In this document: positions 3,523-16,009 of the stretch, in pieces | Numbering within the stretch: the first letter of the stretch is position 1 | Layout of the letters: each line of letters starts with the position of its first letter | Assembly (NCBI GenBank): GCA_021735645.1 | Contig: JAIPGP010000016.1 | Coordinates: forward strand, 1 to 52,625 | Direction: 5' to 3' | DNA: 52,625 bases | DNA from: Candidatus Cloacimonadota bacterium | Lineage (GTDB): Bacteria; Cloacimonadota; Cloacimonadia; Cloacimonadales; TCS61 | Notes under the pieces: generated by a model | Databases searched by the model: none | What the model saw: only the letters and a program-made list of their open reading frames with translations | Told to the model about the DNA's origin: nothing | Made by a program: the position numbers and the translations under genes

Positions 3523-3585
3523 CGTAGATCAAACTTTCCAGTTTGATTAAAATATAAATCTTAATCTGGAAAGATTAAGCTACAT
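3523..3585. repeat. Two-hairpin intergenic repeat (outer GTAG/CTAC stem, ATCAAACT/AGTTTGAT and CTTAATC/GATTAAG hairpins)
   Basis: cgtagatcaaactttccagtttgattaaaatataaatcttaatctggaaagattaagctacat; same family at 5633-5690 and 51719-52058. Confidence 0.6.
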
Positions 3586-3660
3586 AAATGTTCTACTGTT
3601 GAGGGAAATTTGCTTGACTGCTGCGGGAGTATTTTGTGATTATAGAAATTGAGGTGAAAG

Positions 3661-4391
3661 GTGGATTTATTTACAACTGAGATCAAATTTCTGAAGGGTG
3701 TGGGTGAGCATCGAGCCAAGCTTTTGCAGAAGCTGGGAATAAACACGTTTAATGATCTGCTGGAATTTTTCCCGCGGGATTATATAATGCGTGATGCAAA
3801 AAGCTCTATCGGTGAACTGGAAATTGGCAGTCGCTCTTCATTGACGGCAGAGATCGTGAGCATTCGTGAATCTCAGCGCGGCAGGCAGAAACAGCTTAAT
3901 GTGGTGCTGTCTGACGGCGAATACAATCTGCTGTGCACCTGGTTTCAATATGGGAGCTGGCTCACAGATATGATAGTGCGGGGACAGAAGGTGTGGGTAT
4001 CCGGCATGATCACTACTTTCAGAGACCAGTTTCAGATCATTCATCCCGAACTGGAAGTGCTTGATAAAGGGGGAGATACTGCCAGTTTCTGGCATTCACG
4101 CACGGTTTTGCCGGTATATCCGCTGACTGATAAGCTGAAAATCTGGCAGGTACGTCAGATGATCTATAATATTTTCCGGCTTTACGCAAATGATATTGAA
4201 GAGACACTTTCGGATGATATTCTGCAAAAATTTAGCTGGCTGCCGCGTCGCATAAGTTTGCAGAAAATCCATTTTTCTACGCAGCCGGAGCAGGTTGCTG
4301 CCTATAAAACCCGTTATGCCTTTGAAGAGCTTTTTTATAACCAGTTGATGCTGGCAAAAGTGCGGTGTGGCCATGAAGATCAGCAACAAGG
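3661..4391 (+). pseudogene. recG': Truncated duplicate of recG (N-terminal ~245 residues only)
   Basis: Protein nearly identical to the N-terminus of the RecG encoded at 5765-7840. Similarity stops near 4391, before the helicase motifs. Confidence 0.88.
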
Positions 4392-4398
4392 GATAGCA

Positions 4399-4458
4399 TT
4401 TAACTTCATAAGATTTGTAACTCCCGGATTTCACTCTTCCAATAACGGTTGCTGACAT
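4399..4458 (-). pseudogene. Duplicated 5' end of the small ORF at 4921-5097, fused to the antisense of the recG fragment
   Basis: MSATVIGRVKSGSYKSYEVK vs MSATIIGRVKSESYKSYEVK at 5097; homology ends at the recG' junction. Confidence 0.7.
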
Positions 4459-5632: not shown

Positions 5633-5690
5633 TCAAACTTTCCAGTTTGATTAAAAATATAAATCTTAATCTGGAAAGATTAAGCTACAT
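5633..5690. repeat. Two-hairpin intergenic repeat, second recG-linked copy
   Basis: tatcaaactttccagtttgattaaaaatataaatcttaatctggaaagattaagctacat; nearly identical to 3523-3585. Confidence 0.6.
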
Positions 5691-5764
5691 AAATGTTCTA
5701 CTGCTGAGGGAAATTTGCTTGACTGCTAGGGGAGTATTATGTGAAAATAGGATAGAGGTGAAAA

Positions 5765-7840
5765 GTGGATTTGTTCACAACTGATATTAAATTTCTGAAG
5801 GGCGTGGGCGAGCATCGAGCCAAGCTTTTGCAAAAGCTGGGAGTTTACACGTTCAATGATCTGCTGGAATTATTTCCGCGGGATTATATTCTGCGTGATG
5901 CTAAGAGCTCTATAGGCGAACTGGAAATTGGCTGCCGGTCATCGTTGACTGCCGAGATCGTGAGCATTCGTGAAACTCAGCACGGCAGGCAGAGGCAACT
6001 TAATGTGGTGCTGTCTGACGGGGAATACAATTTGCTGTGCACCTGGTTTCAATATGGCACCTGGCTCACTGATATGATAGCGCGGGGACAGAAGGTGTGG
6101 GTTTCCGGGATGATCACAACATTCAGAGACCAGTTTCAGATCGTGCATCCTGAACTGGAGGTGCTTGATAAAGGTGAAGATACCGCCAGTTTCTGGCATT
6201 CACGCACCGTTTTGCCGGTTTATCCGCTGACTGATAAATTAAAGATCTGGCAGGTACGTCAGATGATCTATAATATTTTCCGGCTTTACGCAAATGATAT
6301 TGAAGAGACACTTTCGGATGATATTCTGCAAAAATTTGGCTGGCTGCCGCGTCGCATAAGTTTGCAGAAAATCCATTTTTCTACGCAGCCGGAGCAGGTT
6401 GCTGCCTATAAAACCCGTTATGCCTTTGAAGAGCTTTTTTATAACCAGTTGATGCTGGCAAAAGTACGGCGTGGACATGAAGATGAGCAGAAAGGCAGGG
6501 TTTTTGAGCTGAAAAAGACCTATACTACCCAGTTGAAGAATTCCTTGAAATTCCAGCTTACTTCTGCCCAGAAACGGGTTATCAGGGAAATTGTGGAAGA
6601 TATGACTTCCGGCTACCAGATGAACCGACTGCTGCAGGGCGATGTGGGTTCCGGCAAGACAATTGTTACCCTTTTTGCTATGCTGATTGCAGTGGAAAAT
6701 GGCTGTCAGGCTGTTATTATGGCACCTACTGAGATATTGGCGGAGCAGCATTTTTTGAGTTTCACGGCTTTTCTGGCTGAGATGGATATCCGTATTGCCA
6801 TGCTCAAAGGTGGAAATTACAAGGGCAAGAAGAAAACTAAAGAAGAGATCAAAAGCGGTGATATTCAGATCATAGTAGGCACGCATGCTCTTTTGCAGAA
6901 GGATGTGGAATTTCATAAGATAGGCTTTGTGGCAGTGGATGAGCAGCACCGTTTTGGAGTAGTGCAAAGGTCTTTGATACCAGCAAAAGGTGATAATCCT
7001 GATCTTTTATACATGTCTGCTACGCCTATTCCGCGTTCGCTGGCTCTCACGGTTTATGGTGATCTCACCGTGAGTGTGATCGATGAAATGCCCCCGGGAC
7101 GCAAGCAGATAAAAACGGTCTGGAAAGGTGAAGGCAGAAGAATAGATGCCTATAGTCATGCCACCGCTGAAGTGCGTGACGGCAGGCAGATTTACATAGT
7201 CTGTCCTCTAATCGAGGAATCAGAAAAATCTGATCTGCTGGCAGCGGAAACGCTGTATGAAGATATTAAGACTACTATAATGCCGGGCTGCAGAGCAGAA
7301 TTATTACACGGCAGAATGAAAAATAAAGAAAAAGATGAGATCATGAACCGCTTTAAGAACCATGAATTTGATGTGCTGGTTTCCACTACCGTGATTGAGG
7401 TGGGGATTGATGTGCCAAATGCAACAGTAATGATCATCGAGCATGCCGAACGCTTTGGACTGGCTCAACTGCACCAGTTACGCGGCAGGGTGGGCAGGGG
7501 CAGTGCTGCTTCTTTCTGCTATCTGGTCGCCTATTATCCGCTTACTAAAGTCGGGAAAGAAAGACTGGGCACTATGGTGGAGACGAATGACGGCTTTGTG
7601 ATCGCGGAAAAGGACCTGGAACTGAGAGGACCCGGGGAATTCTTCGGCACAGCTCAAAGCGGCATGGATTTATTTAAGCATGCCAATATTGTACGGGACA
7701 GACAACTCCTCATCCACGCCAGAGCCGTAGCTGGCTGGGTGCTGGATAACGATCCCGAATTAGATAGCGACGATAATCAGGTAATCAAAAAGACTTATGA
7801 AAGATTATATTCTGAGCGGGAGAAGCTGTTTAGTTTTTAG
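5765..7840 (+). CDS. recG: ATP-dependent DNA helicase RecG
   Basis: GDVGSGKT, DEQHRFGV, SATPIPRSLALT, QLRGRVGRG motifs and RecG wedge-type N-terminus. Confidence 0.96.
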   Translation: MDLFTTDIKFLKGVGEHRAKLLQKLGVYTFNDLLELFPRDYILRDAKSSIGELEIGCRSSLTAEIVSIRETQHGRQRQLNVVLSDGEYNLLCTWFQYGTWLTDMIARGQKVWVSGMITTFRDQFQIVHPELEVLDKGEDTASFWHSRTVLPVYPLTDKLKIWQVRQMIYNIFRLYANDIEETLSDDILQKFGWLPRRISLQKIHFSTQPEQVAAYKTRYAFEELFYNQLMLAKVRRGHEDEQKGRVFELKKTYTTQLKNSLKFQLTSAQKRVIREIVEDMTSGYQMNRLLQGDVGSGKTIVTLFAMLIAVENGCQAVIMAPTEILAEQHFLSFTAFLAEMDIRIAMLKGGNYKGKKKTKEEIKSGDIQIIVGTHALLQKDVEFHKIGFVAVDEQHRFGVVQRSLIPAKGDNPDLLYMSATPIPRSLALTVYGDLTVSVIDEMPPGRKQIKTVWKGEGRRIDAYSHATAEVRDGRQIYIVCPLIEESEKSDLLAAETLYEDIKTTIMPGCRAELLHGRMKNKEKDEIMNRFKNHEFDVLVSTTVIEVGIDVPNATVMIIEHAERFGLAQLHQLRGRVGRGSAASFCYLVAYYPLTKVGKERLGTMVETNDGFVIAEKDLELRGPGEFFGTAQSGMDLFKHANIVRDRQLLIHARAVAGWVLDNDPELDSDDNQVIKKTYERLYSEREKLFSF

Positions 7841-8019: not shown

Positions 8020-8100
8020 CTTATTTTGGATTTGCTTTGGGGAAAAAATATCTTGACTATCTCCAGTAAGTATCAGAAATAGTACTTGGTGGAGGTAATA

Positions 8101-8700
8101 ATGATAAAGCCACATGTTTTACTGGTTGATGAATTAAGGAAATATGCTTCGCCTAAAGCGAAGATCACGCGTCTGCTGCAAAAGCGTGAGCTGATTCAGG
8201 TGAAGCGGGGATTGTTTTTGGCAGCAGATGATAGTGATTATTCACTGATGAGTATATCTTCAATTGTTTATGGACCTTCTTATGTATCCTTTGCAAGTGC
8301 TTTGTCCTATTATGGTTTTATACCGGAGCGGGTAGCTGGGATAACCTGTGCTACTTATGGCAAAAATAAGAACCGTGAATTTCATACTCCGGTTGCTGAT
8401 TTTTATTATTACTATCTTCCGGGGGCAGTTTATCCTTATGAAGTGGTTATCCGGGAAGAGAATGGTCAGAATTTTCTGATAGCAACACCGGAAAAGGCAA
8501 TATGTGATTCTTTGTACAAAATAAAAGGCATCAATAATTTAGAGGAAATCGCGGAACTCATTTTATCCGACTGGCGCATTGATCAGGAAGCACTTGATTC
8601 CTTGAACAAAGATGTTTTAGATTTTTTAGTTCCGCTTTACCGGAGACGGATTTGCGGTTTATTTCTTAAATGGCTGACTAAGAGGAGGAAAAATGGATAG
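8101..8700 (+). CDS. abiEi: AbiEi-like antitoxin / transcriptional regulator (type IV TA)
   Basis: RBS ggagg favours ATG at 8101 over 8086. Winged-helix-type N-term (ITRLLQKRELIQVKRGLFL) and ATPEKAICDSLY motif; overlaps an AbiEii gene. Confidence 0.8.
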   Translation: MIKPHVLLVDELRKYASPKAKITRLLQKRELIQVKRGLFLAADDSDYSLMSISSIVYGPSYVSFASALSYYGFIPERVAGITCATYGKNKNREFHTPVADFYYYYLPGAVYPYEVVIREENGQNFLIATPEKAICDSLYKIKGINNLEEIAELILSDWRIDQEALDSLNKDVLDFLVPLYRRRICGLFLKWLTKRRKNG

Positions 8701-9565
8701 TGCTATCGCTTCAATGCTCAGTACATATAAAGCAGTTACCCTTTCGCAGCAGAAAAATGCGTTACAGGAAATCATCCAGGAAATTGCACTTTTGGGTTTA
8801 TTCCGTTCGGATTTTTTCAGTAAAGCAGCTTTTTATGGAGGTTCTGCCCTGCGGATATTTCATGGTTTAGACCGGTTTTCCGAAGACCTTGATTTCAGTC
8901 TTTTAGAGCCGGATAAAGCTTTTGATCTGCTGGAATACAGTCAATATATTAAGAATGAATTGGAAGCTTATGGTTTTGATATTAATCTGGAGGTTAAAGC
9001 TAAAACAAAAGAAACTTCTATTAAATCTGCTTTTATCAAGGCAGGTACGGCAGTTAATCTTTTGCAGATCAGACCGGCAGTGCCGGAAGTAGCCGGGGTT
9101 CATCGGGATGAACTGCTGAAGATTAAGCTGGAAGTGGATACTGATCCGCCGCAAGATGCTGAGAGTGAAGTGAAATATCAGCTTAATCCGGTGCCATATT
9201 CGGTGAGATTATATACTTTACCGGCAATATTTGCCGGCAAAATTCATGCTTTGCTGTTTAGAAACTGGAAGAATCGCGTGAAAGGCAGGGATTTTTATGA
9301 TTATGTCTGGTTTCTGGCGCGGAATATTAAGCCAGACCTGCTGCATCTTACCCGGTGTATGCAGCAAACTGGGCATTGGCAGAGGAATGAGATCATAACG
9401 CGGGAAAAGTTACTGGCTTTATTGAGAGAGAAATTTTCTATTACTGATTTTGAACAGGCGAAAAGGGATGTGAAACCATTTCTTGCTAATCCGGCAGTGC
9501 TTGATATCTGGTCGGAGGAGTTTTTTGTTAAAATAAGTGAGCGGGATTATCAGGAAATTGTCTGA
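8693..9565 (+). CDS. abiEii: AbiEii/AbiGii-family nucleotidyltransferase toxin
   Basis: FYGGSALRIFHGLDRFSEDLDFSLL (GG-S, DxD-type NTase motif), KLEVDTDPP, KGRDFYDYVWFLAR. Confidence 0.88.
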   Translation: MDSAIASMLSTYKAVTLSQQKNALQEIIQEIALLGLFRSDFFSKAAFYGGSALRIFHGLDRFSEDLDFSLLEPDKAFDLLEYSQYIKNELEAYGFDINLEVKAKTKETSIKSAFIKAGTAVNLLQIRPAVPEVAGVHRDELLKIKLEVDTDPPQDAESEVKYQLNPVPYSVRLYTLPAIFAGKIHALLFRNWKNRVKGRDFYDYVWFLARNIKPDLLHLTRCMQQTGHWQRNEIITREKLLALLREKFSITDFEQAKRDVKPFLANPAVLDIWSEEFFVKISERDYQEIV

Positions 9566-11250: not shown

Positions 11251-11763
11251 TCAAACCTCCTTAAGGTCTAAATTAAAATAAATAATGAATCATATTCAGG
11301 TCAAGATAATTATTGATGACCTGGACTGACTGGGCGAAAAAAAATATGCAGAACACGGATTAGACGGATTAAGCGGATTTACACTGATAATGTAATGTAA
11401 GATTTTCTAACCACTGACCACACTGACCACACGGAAAATGTAATGCGAAAAAAGATGGATCATTTTATATGGCTGGAGATAACGTTGTATCCAGTGCATC
11501 CTTGCTCTGGGTGGGTGAGATCGTGATTAATTGATAATAGATTGTGATATAATGTAAGAGATTTTTTACCACAGAGAACAGATAACGAAGAGAGCGCAGA
11601 GGAACGTTAGAGATTTTTTAGGTGATATAAACTGATTAGAGATTTTCAGTGGGGGTGTTCGTCCAGTCATGTCCTGAGTACCGTTCATAACTTTTGACTT
11701 ATGTAAGATATTATTTAGCCGCGAACAAAATATGAAATACCTGTCAAGTTAGGTTCTAACCTT

Positions 11764-12074
11764 CTAACTTTCTAACTTTCTAACTTTCACTTACATTCAG
11801 CAATGAATATAGTTGACTCATGCTTTATTGTGCTAAAAATCCGCTCTCCCTGAGCATTATCATAACATTTACCATTCACCAGTTAATGTATTTAACCACT
11901 AATGCACAGGGAAAAGAGCAGAAATGTAAGGAATGTAAGGAAAATGTAAGGTCGTAAATATTTGCTATTATGTTAATTACGACTAATTATTACATTTTTG
12001 CCCCTTTTTGAAGATATATACCTCCTATATTTAACTTTTTAGAAAAAACCTCTCTCCACTAAATGTAAAATGAG
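11764..12074. repeat. ~300 bp structured intergenic element, copy A
   Basis: Aligns along its length to 12369-12670. Contains triple word AATGTAAGG and complementary arm TTACATTTTT. Confidence 0.75.
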
Positions 12075-12368
12075 GTGCACCGCCGGGTATTTCCAGGTGG
12101 GGCGCAGATAACGACCGCTATCAGTCATTCCCTGAAAACAAACTTGCTGCAGTGAAAAACATAGATAGCTGCTGATAACTGCGCGTAGTTCTCGCCCCTC
12201 GTAGACCGTGCGTAGACTTCTGAAAGTGCTCCCTAACTTTAGTGACGGAGTAGGCGAAGGATAGACTTCTCGCCACCGCCCGTTGTGCAAGTTCTACTTC
12301 TCTAGTCAATTATCATCAAGATTTCCGATATGAAAACAAAAAATACAGGGGGATGCCTGATGGTCTAA

Positions 12369-12670
12369 ACTTTCTAACTTTCTAACTTTCAATATTCAGC
12401 AATGAATATAGTTGACTCATGCTTTATAGTGCTAAAAATCCGCTCTCCTGAGCATTATCATAACACTTACTATTTACCAGTTAATGTATTTAACCAGGAG
12501 GGCACAGGGAAAAGAGCAAAAAAGTAAGAAGAGTAAGGAAAGAGTAAGTTCATAACTCCCTGCAATAATATTAATTACAACAAAATCTTACTCTTTTAGC
12601 GATTTTTGAAAATACATACCCTTATATTTAATTTTTTTAAATAAAATTTCTCCACTAAATGTAAAATGAG
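12369..12670. repeat. ~300 bp structured intergenic element, copy B
   Basis: Same framework as copy A but words are AAGTAAG/GAGTAAGG/AGAGTAAG and the arm is CTTACTCTTTT. Confidence 0.75.
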
Positions 12671-12729
12671 TTCTAATCTAATAATAAGTTAAAATTATGA
12701 AAACTTAACTAAGTTTGCAAAAATATAAC

Positions 12730-12762
12730 TTGACATTATATTATCTTGAAATATATTATCTT
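12730..12762 (+). promoter_or_regulatory. Putative higBA promoter/operator
   Basis: TTGACA (12730-12735), 18 bp spacer, TATTAT (12754-12759), overlapped by two direct ATATTATCTT repeats (12738-12747, 12753-12762). Confidence 0.5.
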
Positions 12763-12855
12763 TATATGTGAGATAACTGATTTAAGATCAGATATTATTA
12801 AAAGAGGATGTATTGAAATTAATCTCATACCATTATACATCCGAAAGTTGGTAAA

Positions 12856-13167
12856 ATGCACATTGTTGGCAACAAGATAACTAAGGAATTTGTTAATAAA
12901 TATCCTGAAGCAGATGGTGCAGTAAACGCATTGATGCTTGAGATTAAAAATGCAACCTGGGAAAATCCTCATCAAATGAAGGAACAATATAGATCAGCAA
13001 GTGTAATTGGCAAGGGATGTATTGTATTTAATATTTGTGGCTATAAGTATCGATTAGTTGTAAAGATTGATTTCATTAGTCAAATTGCCAAAATACGCTG
13101 GGCAGGGACGCACAAGGAGTATGATAAACTCAAGATTAAGGAGTCGAAATGTTTAAGCTCAAAATAA
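12856..13167 (+). CDS. higB: HigB-type toxin (RelE superfamily mRNA interferase)
   Basis: ASVIGKGCIVFNICGYKYRLVVKIDF...IRWAGTHKEYDKL matches the HigB_toxin signature; overlaps a higA-like gene. Confidence 0.88.
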   Translation: MHIVGNKITKEFVNKYPEADGAVNALMLEIKNATWENPHQMKEQYRSASVIGKGCIVFNICGYKYRLVVKIDFISQIAKIRWAGTHKEYDKLKIKESKCLSSK

Positions 13168-14369
13168 TCAAATCTGAATCAGATTATGATCTGGCATCTG
13201 AACGCTTAGATGAACTTATGGATAAGGATGAACTAGCTCTTAATAATAGAGAAGAAATGGAATTGATTGCGCATTTAATTGAGGAATATGAAGAAAAAGC
13301 ATATCCAGTTGAGTTACCCTCTCCGATCGAAGCGATCAAATTCCGCATGGAGCAGATGAATTTAAAGCAGAATGATCTGGTCCCTTACATTGGCAGTAAA
13401 GGGGTTGTGTCAAATATATTGAATGGAAAACGCCCCTTGACCTTAAAAATGATAAGAGCTCTCCATAAAGGGCTTCAGATCCCATTAGAAGCATTAGTAA
13501 AGGAAGAGGAATTAGAATATGTTGACCAACCTCTTGAAATCGACTGGGATAAATTTCCCATCAAGGAGATGTATAATACAGCTAAAAATGTTTTCTTTAG
13601 GAATTTTGAAGCTTCCTGCAATCAAATTAAAGAAAATGCGGAATATTATCTACGCGAATTGTTGACGCCATATTCAAATGTGGCAATGGGTAATACCTTT
13701 TGCAGACAGAATGCCAGAATGAGTGACCGGGTGGATAATTATGCCTTGGCTGCCTGGATTGCCGGATGTCGCCTTATTGCCGATGAAACCACATTGGATA
13801 GGAAATTTGATAAAAATAATGAGCAAACTATCATCCAACAATTAAAAGCTCTAACAATATTTGATGAAGGACCAAAGCTGGCAGGAAAATACTTGCAAAA
13901 AGAAGGTATCCATTTAGTTATTCTACCTAATTTACCAAAAACGTATCTGGATGGTGCAGTATTTCGGGCAAAAGACGATAATCCTGTGATAGCACTTACT
14001 TTGAGATATGACAGAATTGATCACTTCTGGTTTACTCTTTTTCACGAACTGGGACATGTTTTTAGACATTTAGGTGAAAGTGAAGCAGAATGTTATCTGG
14101 ATGAGCTTGAAATATCACCAAATGACCAGGAAGAACGAGATGCCGACCTGTTTGCCTCTGAAAACCTCATCAGAGATGAAGATATGGATGAAGCAGCACT
14201 TTTTGATGAGTATTCTAAGGTCAAGGTGATAGAATTTGCCAGAGAACACAATATTCATCCGTCCATAGTCGCAGGAAGAATCCGCTACAAAAATAATAAT
14301 TACAGGATACTATGGAGTCTGGTTGGCAAAGGGGAAGTTAGAAAGCTGTTTAATCCTCATATAAGCTAA
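13149..14369 (+). CDS. higA: HigA-like antitoxin HTH fused to an ImmA/IrrE metallopeptidase domain
   Basis: N-term HigA HTH (MEQMNLKQNDLVPYIGSKGVVSNILNGKRPLTLKMIRAL); C-term zinc protease FTLFHELGHVFRH. Confidence 0.88.
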   Translation: MFKLKIIKSESDYDLASERLDELMDKDELALNNREEMELIAHLIEEYEEKAYPVELPSPIEAIKFRMEQMNLKQNDLVPYIGSKGVVSNILNGKRPLTLKMIRALHKGLQIPLEALVKEEELEYVDQPLEIDWDKFPIKEMYNTAKNVFFRNFEASCNQIKENAEYYLRELLTPYSNVAMGNTFCRQNARMSDRVDNYALAAWIAGCRLIADETTLDRKFDKNNEQTIIQQLKALTIFDEGPKLAGKYLQKEGIHLVILPNLPKTYLDGAVFRAKDDNPVIALTLRYDRIDHFWFTLFHELGHVFRHLGESEAECYLDELEISPNDQEERDADLFASENLIRDEDMDEAALFDEYSKVKVIEFAREHNIHPSIVAGRIRYKNNNYRILWSLVGKGEVRKLFNPHIS

Positions 14370-14404
14370 TGGAAAAGTTGATGTAGTAGCTTGGAGTGTG
14401 AGTT

Positions 14405-16009
14405 ATGGACATAAAATATCATTCAGATCCCCAAAAAAATGAATTGAAGAAATTACAAATGATTGCTTCATCCTTAAACAAGTATAGTTTAAATTACCTA
14501 TTGCAATTGTCATCATTTTTGTCCTTTATTTCCTCTTACGAAGAAGAAATCGGTAATTTTTCTCAATATAGATTTTTTGATTATTCCTTCATAGAAATGT
14601 TCTGCAAAGCAATTCTGCTATCTAAATCGAGAAATTATAAGGAAAAAATATTAGACTCGAAAATATTTTGCAAGATACATGATAAATTGAGAGAAGTAAA
14701 TATTCACTATATTGCAGATTGTGATGAAGAAGTAAATATAAATAAATTGCTGTCAATTGTCTCAAATACCCAATGTCATCATCAGCAAAAAAACTTCTTT
14801 ATTGAATTTGGAAGACAATTAATGGTATATAAAATAATTCCAGAGAAATATAAACTTAATAAGAAAGAAGATTGGATTGATTTTATAAGTATATTTGAAG
14901 AAAAGATACAGGTTAATTTTGAATTGTATTTTTTATATAATGCTTACTTATTTGTATTTTGCTTAGATCGTGGAAAGAAACTCATTCAACAGTTAAATAA
15001 ATTCAAAGTTGATGCAGCAAAAATTGTAGATTTTTTTAACCAAGTAATTTACATAAACAGTACAAACTTCTCAATAGACACATCAAAAGCATTTGAAGAT
15101 ATTAAGAGAAAAACAGGATTTAATGGGGATTATTTAACGACATTTTTTTCAATTGATATTTCTGAAATAAAAAATTTAGTGAGAATAAAAGATTATGATA
15201 GATTAATATCTGATTGGCAGCCATTTAGAAATAAATCATTGATAAAAATAGAAAACGGTAATTTCATTATTCCCTCTCTATATGATTACAAATTGAGAAT
15301 GTTAGATGTAATCCCTACTTATATAAATAGCCAAGAAAAACCAATATTAAAGGGAATTTTTACAGAGTTAGGCTACTGCTATGAGAAATATGTACTCAAT
15401 TATTTTGCTGAAAAAATCCCTAATATTATTATTATACCTGAACGGAATTTCAATTCCAGCAATCTAGGTCCTGATATTGTTATTGTCGATAGATCGAAGA
15501 ACATCCTAATCGCAATAGAAATCAAATCAAAACATATTAAATTAAATTCAAGGCATAATCCAAGTAATGAAGAAAAAAATGGTCTAATAGATATATCATT
15601 AACTGAAATGCGTAATCTCAATGAGAAAATTAAAAAAATATTCAGATACGAAGGCGACTACAAAGAATACCAGAGTGCTATTTCATCTTGTAAGATTGAA
15701 AACAGCTTTTCATTAGTAATATGTGCTGACTATGGATTCTTTATTGATAAGGAAATCTGGGAAAGATATTCTGAAAATAATGATCACATTAATTACAATT
15801 ATATTTTTATGGATATTCCTAGAATTGAGAATGTTATAGAATATACAGCACATCACAACAAGTTAATCAGTGATTCGTTACAGACCTACATGGACATTTT
15901 AGTGAAAAATGAACCAAAAACCAGTGTTGAAGAATACTTTAGGAATTTTGATATCAAAAATAGTCTTATATATCAAATTTTTAATAATTTCATGAAGTCT
16001 TTTGATTGA
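14405..16009 (+). CDS. Uncharacterised 534-aa protein with PD-(D/E)XK nuclease-like motif in the C-terminal half
   Basis: ERNFNSSNLGPDIVIVDRSKNILIAIEIKSKHIK = PD...ExK arrangement; 35 bp downstream of higA-like gene, same strand. Confidence 0.7.
   Translation: MDIKYHSDPQKNELKKLQMIASSLNKYSLNYLLQLSSFLSFISSYEEEIGNFSQYRFFDYSFIEMFCKAILLSKSRNYKEKILDSKIFCKIHDKLREVNIHYIADCDEEVNINKLLSIVSNTQCHHQQKNFFIEFGRQLMVYKIIPEKYKLNKKEDWIDFISIFEEKIQVNFELYFLYNAYLFVFCLDRGKKLIQQLNKFKVDAAKIVDFFNQVIYINSTNFSIDTSKAFEDIKRKTGFNGDYLTTFFSIDISEIKNLVRIKDYDRLISDWQPFRNKSLIKIENGNFIIPSLYDYKLRMLDVIPTYINSQEKPILKGIFTELGYCYEKYVLNYFAEKIPNIIIIPERNFNSSNLGPDIVIVDRSKNILIAIEIKSKHIKLNSRHNPSNEEKNGLIDISLTEMRNLNEKIKKIFRYEGDYKEYQSAISSCKIENSFSLVICADYGFFIDKEIWERYSENNDHINYNYIFMDIPRIENVIEYTAHHNKLISDSLQTYMDILVKNEPKTSVEEYFRNFDIKNSLIYQIFNNFMKSFD

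Follow-up and report, generated by a model that had tools for sequence, protein, structure and literature searches.

A PD-λ-2-type gene pair and a distantly GapS1-like gene side by side in an accessory slot of a Cloacimonadota genome

PD-λ-2, the described system closest to the locus considered here, came from a functional selection in E. coli as a three-gene system acting by abortive infection (Vassallo et al. 2022, PMC9519451). Its third gene is required for defence against λvir, and, unexpectedly, its B protein is toxic by itself and is neutralised by A (PMC9519451). In E. coli, HigA and HigBA are in turn known to bind palindromes in promoters (PMC11980606). A further point of comparison is GAPS1, named as a defence-system protein (PMC12774648), the original report of which is Mahata et al. 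2024 as cited in PMC12259885.

The locus lies in a stretch of 52,625 nucleotides (hereafter the window) from a Candidatus Cloacimonadota bacterium, and comprises three co-directional genes, A, B and C, with their upstream signals:

12701-12716, no strand assigned: inverted repeat AAACTTA-AC-TAAGTTT, the likely operator (7-bp perfect arms, 2-nt spacer)
12730-12757, + strand: promoter-like TTGACA-16-TATATT (11/12 consensus matches)
12737-12762, + strand: direct repeat of ~11 nt (copies at 12737 and 12752, spacing 15), overlapping the -10 region
12856-13167, + strand: gene A, HigB-fold, PD-Lambda-2_A type, 103 aa
13149-14369, + strand: gene B, HigA-type HTH and ImmA/IrrE zinc-peptidase fusion, PD-Lambda-2_B type, 406 aa
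14405-16009, + strand: gene C, divergent GapS1-like with a predicted C-terminal PD-(D/E)XK nuclease domain, 534 aa

This arrangement is as the original prediction had placed it, the coordinates of the reading frames confirming an overlap of A and B (19 nt) and a gap of 35 nt before C. Neither a terminator-like site nor a strong promoter was found in the interval between B and C when both were sought, and promoter-like sites within B are weak and at chance expectation. The short gap, the missing terminator and a ribosome-binding site of its own suggest that C probably shares a transcript with AB. Base composition varies along the locus, GC content being 34.6% in A, 37.7% in B and 26.4% in C, against 41.6% for the whole window.

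A promoter with a direct operator repeat had been proposed upstream of A. The promoter match stands and the repeat exists, but the latter is marginal, being matched by 1.4% of Markov shuffles of the region (p ~0.014), and is not conserved, being absent upstream of the AB pair in G001, a genome of the same genus. As an operator it was set aside for the inverted repeat, which keeps its position 5' of the -35 box: at loci L022-L028 a long palindrome of the AAAGTTCCCAATTTGGGAACTTT type ends a few bases 5' of TTGAC, and G001 carries a weaker inverted repeat, AACTA-AACA-TAGTT, at the corresponding place. The palindrome at 12701-12716 is thus the likely operator.

Assignment of the first two genes is straightforward. 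A is recognized by Pfam HigB_toxin (5e-25) and by the PADLOC model PD-Lambda-2_A (5e-30, model positions 1-96 of 97), and matches solved HigB structures in a phmmer search. B matches PD-Lambda-2_B along its whole length (7e-130, residues 1-402) and combines HTH_3 with Peptidase_M78/IrrE (Pfam; 5e-11); its first 117 profile positions align with solved HigA structures, and its peptidase portion aligns with CapP and a further HTH protein. The FHELGH motif occupies residues 298-303. All of 11 B homologues keep H299, E300, H303 and the distal E329, which makes an active peptidase probable. These matches and the invariant HExxH bear out the description of AB as a HigB and HigA-ImmA pair in which B carries a zinc-peptidase domain of its own. 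The view of the locus as defence-type is also supported. The roles implied by the names are another matter. In PD-λ-2, the sole tested system with such an A-B architecture, they are opposite to those of a HigB toxin and a HigA antitoxin (PMC9519451); because B is toxic there and A relieves it, the labels may, by homology, be reversed in the window as well.

Twenty-nine other AB loci were inspected, seven from Cloacimonadota, seven from plasmids and fifteen full-length from IMG/VR, the last including several near-duplicates. AB is common on plasmids as a two-gene module, and the surveyed loci mostly stand without a conserved third gene. Downstream DNA was readable at 27 of them: none carries a C homologue there, and two carry the PD-λ-2 third gene, of the β family. 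These two, L069 and L072, are true PD-λ-2 operons from IMG/VR, with third genes matching PD-Lambda-2_C at 1e-143 and 1e-135 after gaps of 18 nt and 0 nt, respectively, compared with 35 nt in the window. C itself is not of the β family, as it has no PD-Lambda-2_C match and an hhalign value of 0.1%. A few AB surroundings may be recorded in their own right. On a Pseudoalteromonas plasmid the pair directly follows a restriction-endonuclease operon (L037), and on rhizobial plasmids two pairs (L042, L043) adjoin ThiF/ubiquitin-like cassettes. At L076, L100 and L124, divergent B-like peptidase proteins, whose resemblance to B is largely confined to the C-terminal part, are encoded immediately ahead of β-family genes; these are apparently further PD-λ-2-like forms.

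Gene C required a more circuitous approach. Used as a single query it retrieved nothing from GTDB contigs, plasmids, phages, IMG/VR or PDB, and no relative was found in other genomes of the source genus or family. A phylum-wide search found a full-length homologue in G098, 35% identical, along with remoter ones in G070 and G092; a four-homologue profile added two relatives in G119, through which the family reaches plasmids of Priestia, Sporosarcina, Rhodococcus, Nostoc and others, the plasmid hosts belonging to Bacillota, Cyanobacteriota and Actinomycetota. An alignment of ten sequences from four phyla shows no variation at R137, G323, E327, E346, D357, K374 or E475; at position 372, nine of the sequences have E and the other has D. 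The PD...IEIKSK pattern on which the original prediction of a PD-(D/E)XK-type site was built is, on this alignment, not a chance occurrence, as it belongs to a full conserved set, E327/D357/E372-x-K374.

Structural modelling is consistent with this assignment. A prediction from the single sequence was unusable (pLDDT 35), while one from a six-sequence alignment (pLDDT 64, pTM 0.68) gave the α-β-β-β-α-β order of the PD-(D/E)XK core at residues 312-440. Its best PDB fold match is the Shedu nuclease domain (probability 0.77, E 0.31), with HindIII, Card1 and Hjc lower in the list; none of these is significant by E-value, and none falls below 0.001. Assignment of C to the PD-(D/E)XK nucleases is very probable on the conserved residues and the modelled element order.

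The statement that C has no recognisable family falls once its homologues are added. The NCBIfam model antiphage_GapS1 (NF047931) does not match window C, but it matches 8 of the 10 members of the family, at best with 9.7e-27; L048, the closest kin of C, gives a collinear match (5e-5, 22 bits), and the G119 proteins score 87-93 bits. The family cut-off is 320 bits, exceeded by a clear GapS1 from the same phylum (G115, 390 bits). Aligned by hhalign against this GapS1 and five intermediates, four narrow C proteins gave 98.3% (E 1.2e-14) over 358 columns, a span that takes in the helical N-terminal part of C, and window C with L048 only gave 95.8% (E 8e-9). By these alignments C is a distant collinear homologue of GapS1, scoring below curated family membership.

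Is C then linked to AB? Besides the window, 11 loci of the C family were inspected (five from Cloacimonadota and six from plasmids), and at none does AB adjoin the C-family gene. The homologues keep varied company: L048 adjoins DUF6508, DUF1848 and type I restriction genes, L060 occurs with a DUF5677 protein, L147 follows an AAA ATPase gene, L150-L152 stand alone, and L049 and L050 are part of an Hma operon with Shedu adjacent. In these last two, both from Cloacimonadota genomes, the GapS1-like gene is directly followed by Shedu SduA, with HmaC as neighbour (L049:5938-11729, L050:3025-8448), placing two PD-(D/E)XK nucleases in tandem. Conversely, the AB pair of G001, with a B 65% identical to that of the window, lies 12 nt upstream of xseA and lacks C. 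The plasmid records listed for GapS1-like proteins and those listed for B have none in common among those listed. Outside Cloacimonadota the survey covered plasmids, phages and viral contigs, chromosomes being covered by a pattern scan only, and some contigs end close to the loci. The original prediction had made recurrence of the C family with higBA in other genomes the check on its three-gene module, to be abandoned if the two did not co-occur; no such case was found at the loci inspected (0/11 for C, 0/27 for AB). A fixed three-gene module is therefore unsupported, because the linkage is unseen at the other loci inspected, C is much AT-richer, and G001 keeps AB without C.

The surroundings of the locus are those of an accessory slot, lying between recG and nrdJ. 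In G015 nrdJ adjoins recG, with neither ABC nor AbiE there, and in G001 the interval holds two unrelated large genes and a SEL1 protein, ABC and AbiE again being absent. In the window the same slot holds an AbiEi/AbiEii type IV toxin-antitoxin pair (8086-9565; 5e-55 and 1e-106) 3 kb upstream of the operon. Several repeats were also observed. A non-coding direct repeat of ~320 bp lies just upstream of the operon (11750-12074 and 12360-12670, spacing ~598, blocks 80-98% identical), for which Rfam gave no match and the RNA fold is not unusual; copies of its ~130-bp core (around 11920-12050) are present at some 30-40 sites across the genome. The beginning of recG occurs twice: a truncated copy, together with the DNA preceding it, lies at 3549-4455, ahead of the full gene at 5654-7840, and further short repeats are present between the two.

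On balance we favour, with some confidence, the reading in which AB and C are two stacked and perhaps co-transcribed defences, separately acquired in the recG-nrdJ slot. The first unit would be a two-gene PD-λ-2 core, A with its HigB fold and B with its HigA-type DNA-binding domain and ImmA/IrrE peptidase, whose complex may act on the palindrome next to the -35 box to repress the promoter from which the pair is expressed. Some cue from the phage would tip the balance between A and B, leading to growth arrest and abortion of the infection, and by analogy with the tested PD-λ-2 unopposed B would be the poison and A the antidote. The second unit would be C, which probably works by itself, cleaving phage nucleic acid with its C-terminal PD-(D/E)XK domain, while its helical N-terminal half may serve as a sensor; C would probably ride on the AB transcript yet have no need of AB. 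In favour of this reading, C homologues lacking AB are found with Hma genes, near type I restriction genes, on plasmids or as solitary genes, and against it stand the A-B-C order and short B-C gap, which mimic true PD-λ-2 operons. Because AB and C appear to have separate histories, stacked defences are more probable than a three-part machine. A single functional system of all three genes, with the GapS1-like nuclease substituting for β in a variant of PD-λ-2, is less likely, and we regard it as a minority possibility, still considered because its order and spacing resemble those of L069 and L072. AB would then be a phage-sensing gate and C an obligatory partner or effector, in keeping with the need for PD-λ-2_C in defence (PMC9519451), with the lack of a terminator or strong promoter between B and C, and with the partner swapping common around ImmA-type antitoxins (PMC10440598). 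However, no inspected locus offered a second AB-C adjacency, the GC content of C is strongly different, and its homologues belong to other operons or stand alone.

Two further explanations carry much less weight. The mechanism attached to the original prediction, in which self-cleavage of B in response to a phage signal frees both a HigB mRNA interferase and the C nuclease, might draw on the intact HExxH beside a HigA-type HTH and on the HTH cleavage suggested for Rosmer-like systems (PMC10440598); it is improbable nonetheless, as in the tested PD-λ-2 B is the toxic component and A the neutraliser, and neither a cleavage site nor an interaction was found. Moreover, with C unlinked to AB elsewhere, there is no reason for B to be holding C. 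Least probable of all, and very doubtful, is that the locus has no role in defence, AB serving selfishly as an addiction pair that keeps the region stable, with C as passenger DNA. Two-gene AB modules are indeed common on plasmids, and no other genome of the source genus or family has a relative of C, but C is an intact frame of 534 codons that keeps its catalytic and structural invariants, relatives of both units are found among defence genes, and AbiE is only 3 kb away.

The analysis places the PD-λ-2 A-B pair in Cloacimonadota and finds its β gene missing at most AB loci surveyed. It also ties an unnamed nuclease family, that of C, to the GapS1 antiphage proteins through common invariant residues. 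Should AB and C cooperate, the locus would offer a directly testable example of an effector being exchanged behind a toxin-antitoxin pair of the ImmA type.

The locus may be compared with several known systems. With HigBA type II toxin-antitoxins it has in common the HigB fold of A and the HigA-like first 117 residues of B, but B is extended by an ImmA/IrrE peptidase domain, and in the relative that has been tested the toxic partner is the opposite one. HigBAC (TAC), with its SecB-like chaperone in third place, was set aside, as C has no SecB match and is nuclease-like instead. RosmerTA (RmrTA) similarly pairs an HTH-plus-ImmA antitoxin-type protein with a small partner, but RmrA models match B weakly (5e-6, against 7e-130 for PD-Lambda-2_B), and A is of the HigB/PD-Lambda-2_A type. 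Shedu (SduA) is also a PD-(D/E)XK defence nuclease, and it neighbours the C homologues in G070 and G092. Considered on account of the fold match, it was rejected by profile comparison: C lacks profile-level homology to it (no SduA_C (DUF4263) match, hhalign 0.9%), and a distant kin, L049, scores 19 bits where the cut-off is 27. HEC-02B was likewise rejected, its match (E 0.001) spanning 50 residues and being too short. GapS1 has the nuclease motif and a collinear homology of ~360 columns in common with C, although NF047931 leaves window C unmatched and its closest kin lies far under 320 bits, and the relative in the window sits behind a toxin-antitoxin pair. PD-λ-2 has in common with the window the A and B genes, their order and the HigA-plus-peptidase layout of B, but where its third gene is of the β family, the window has in that place the unrelated, probable nuclease gene C.
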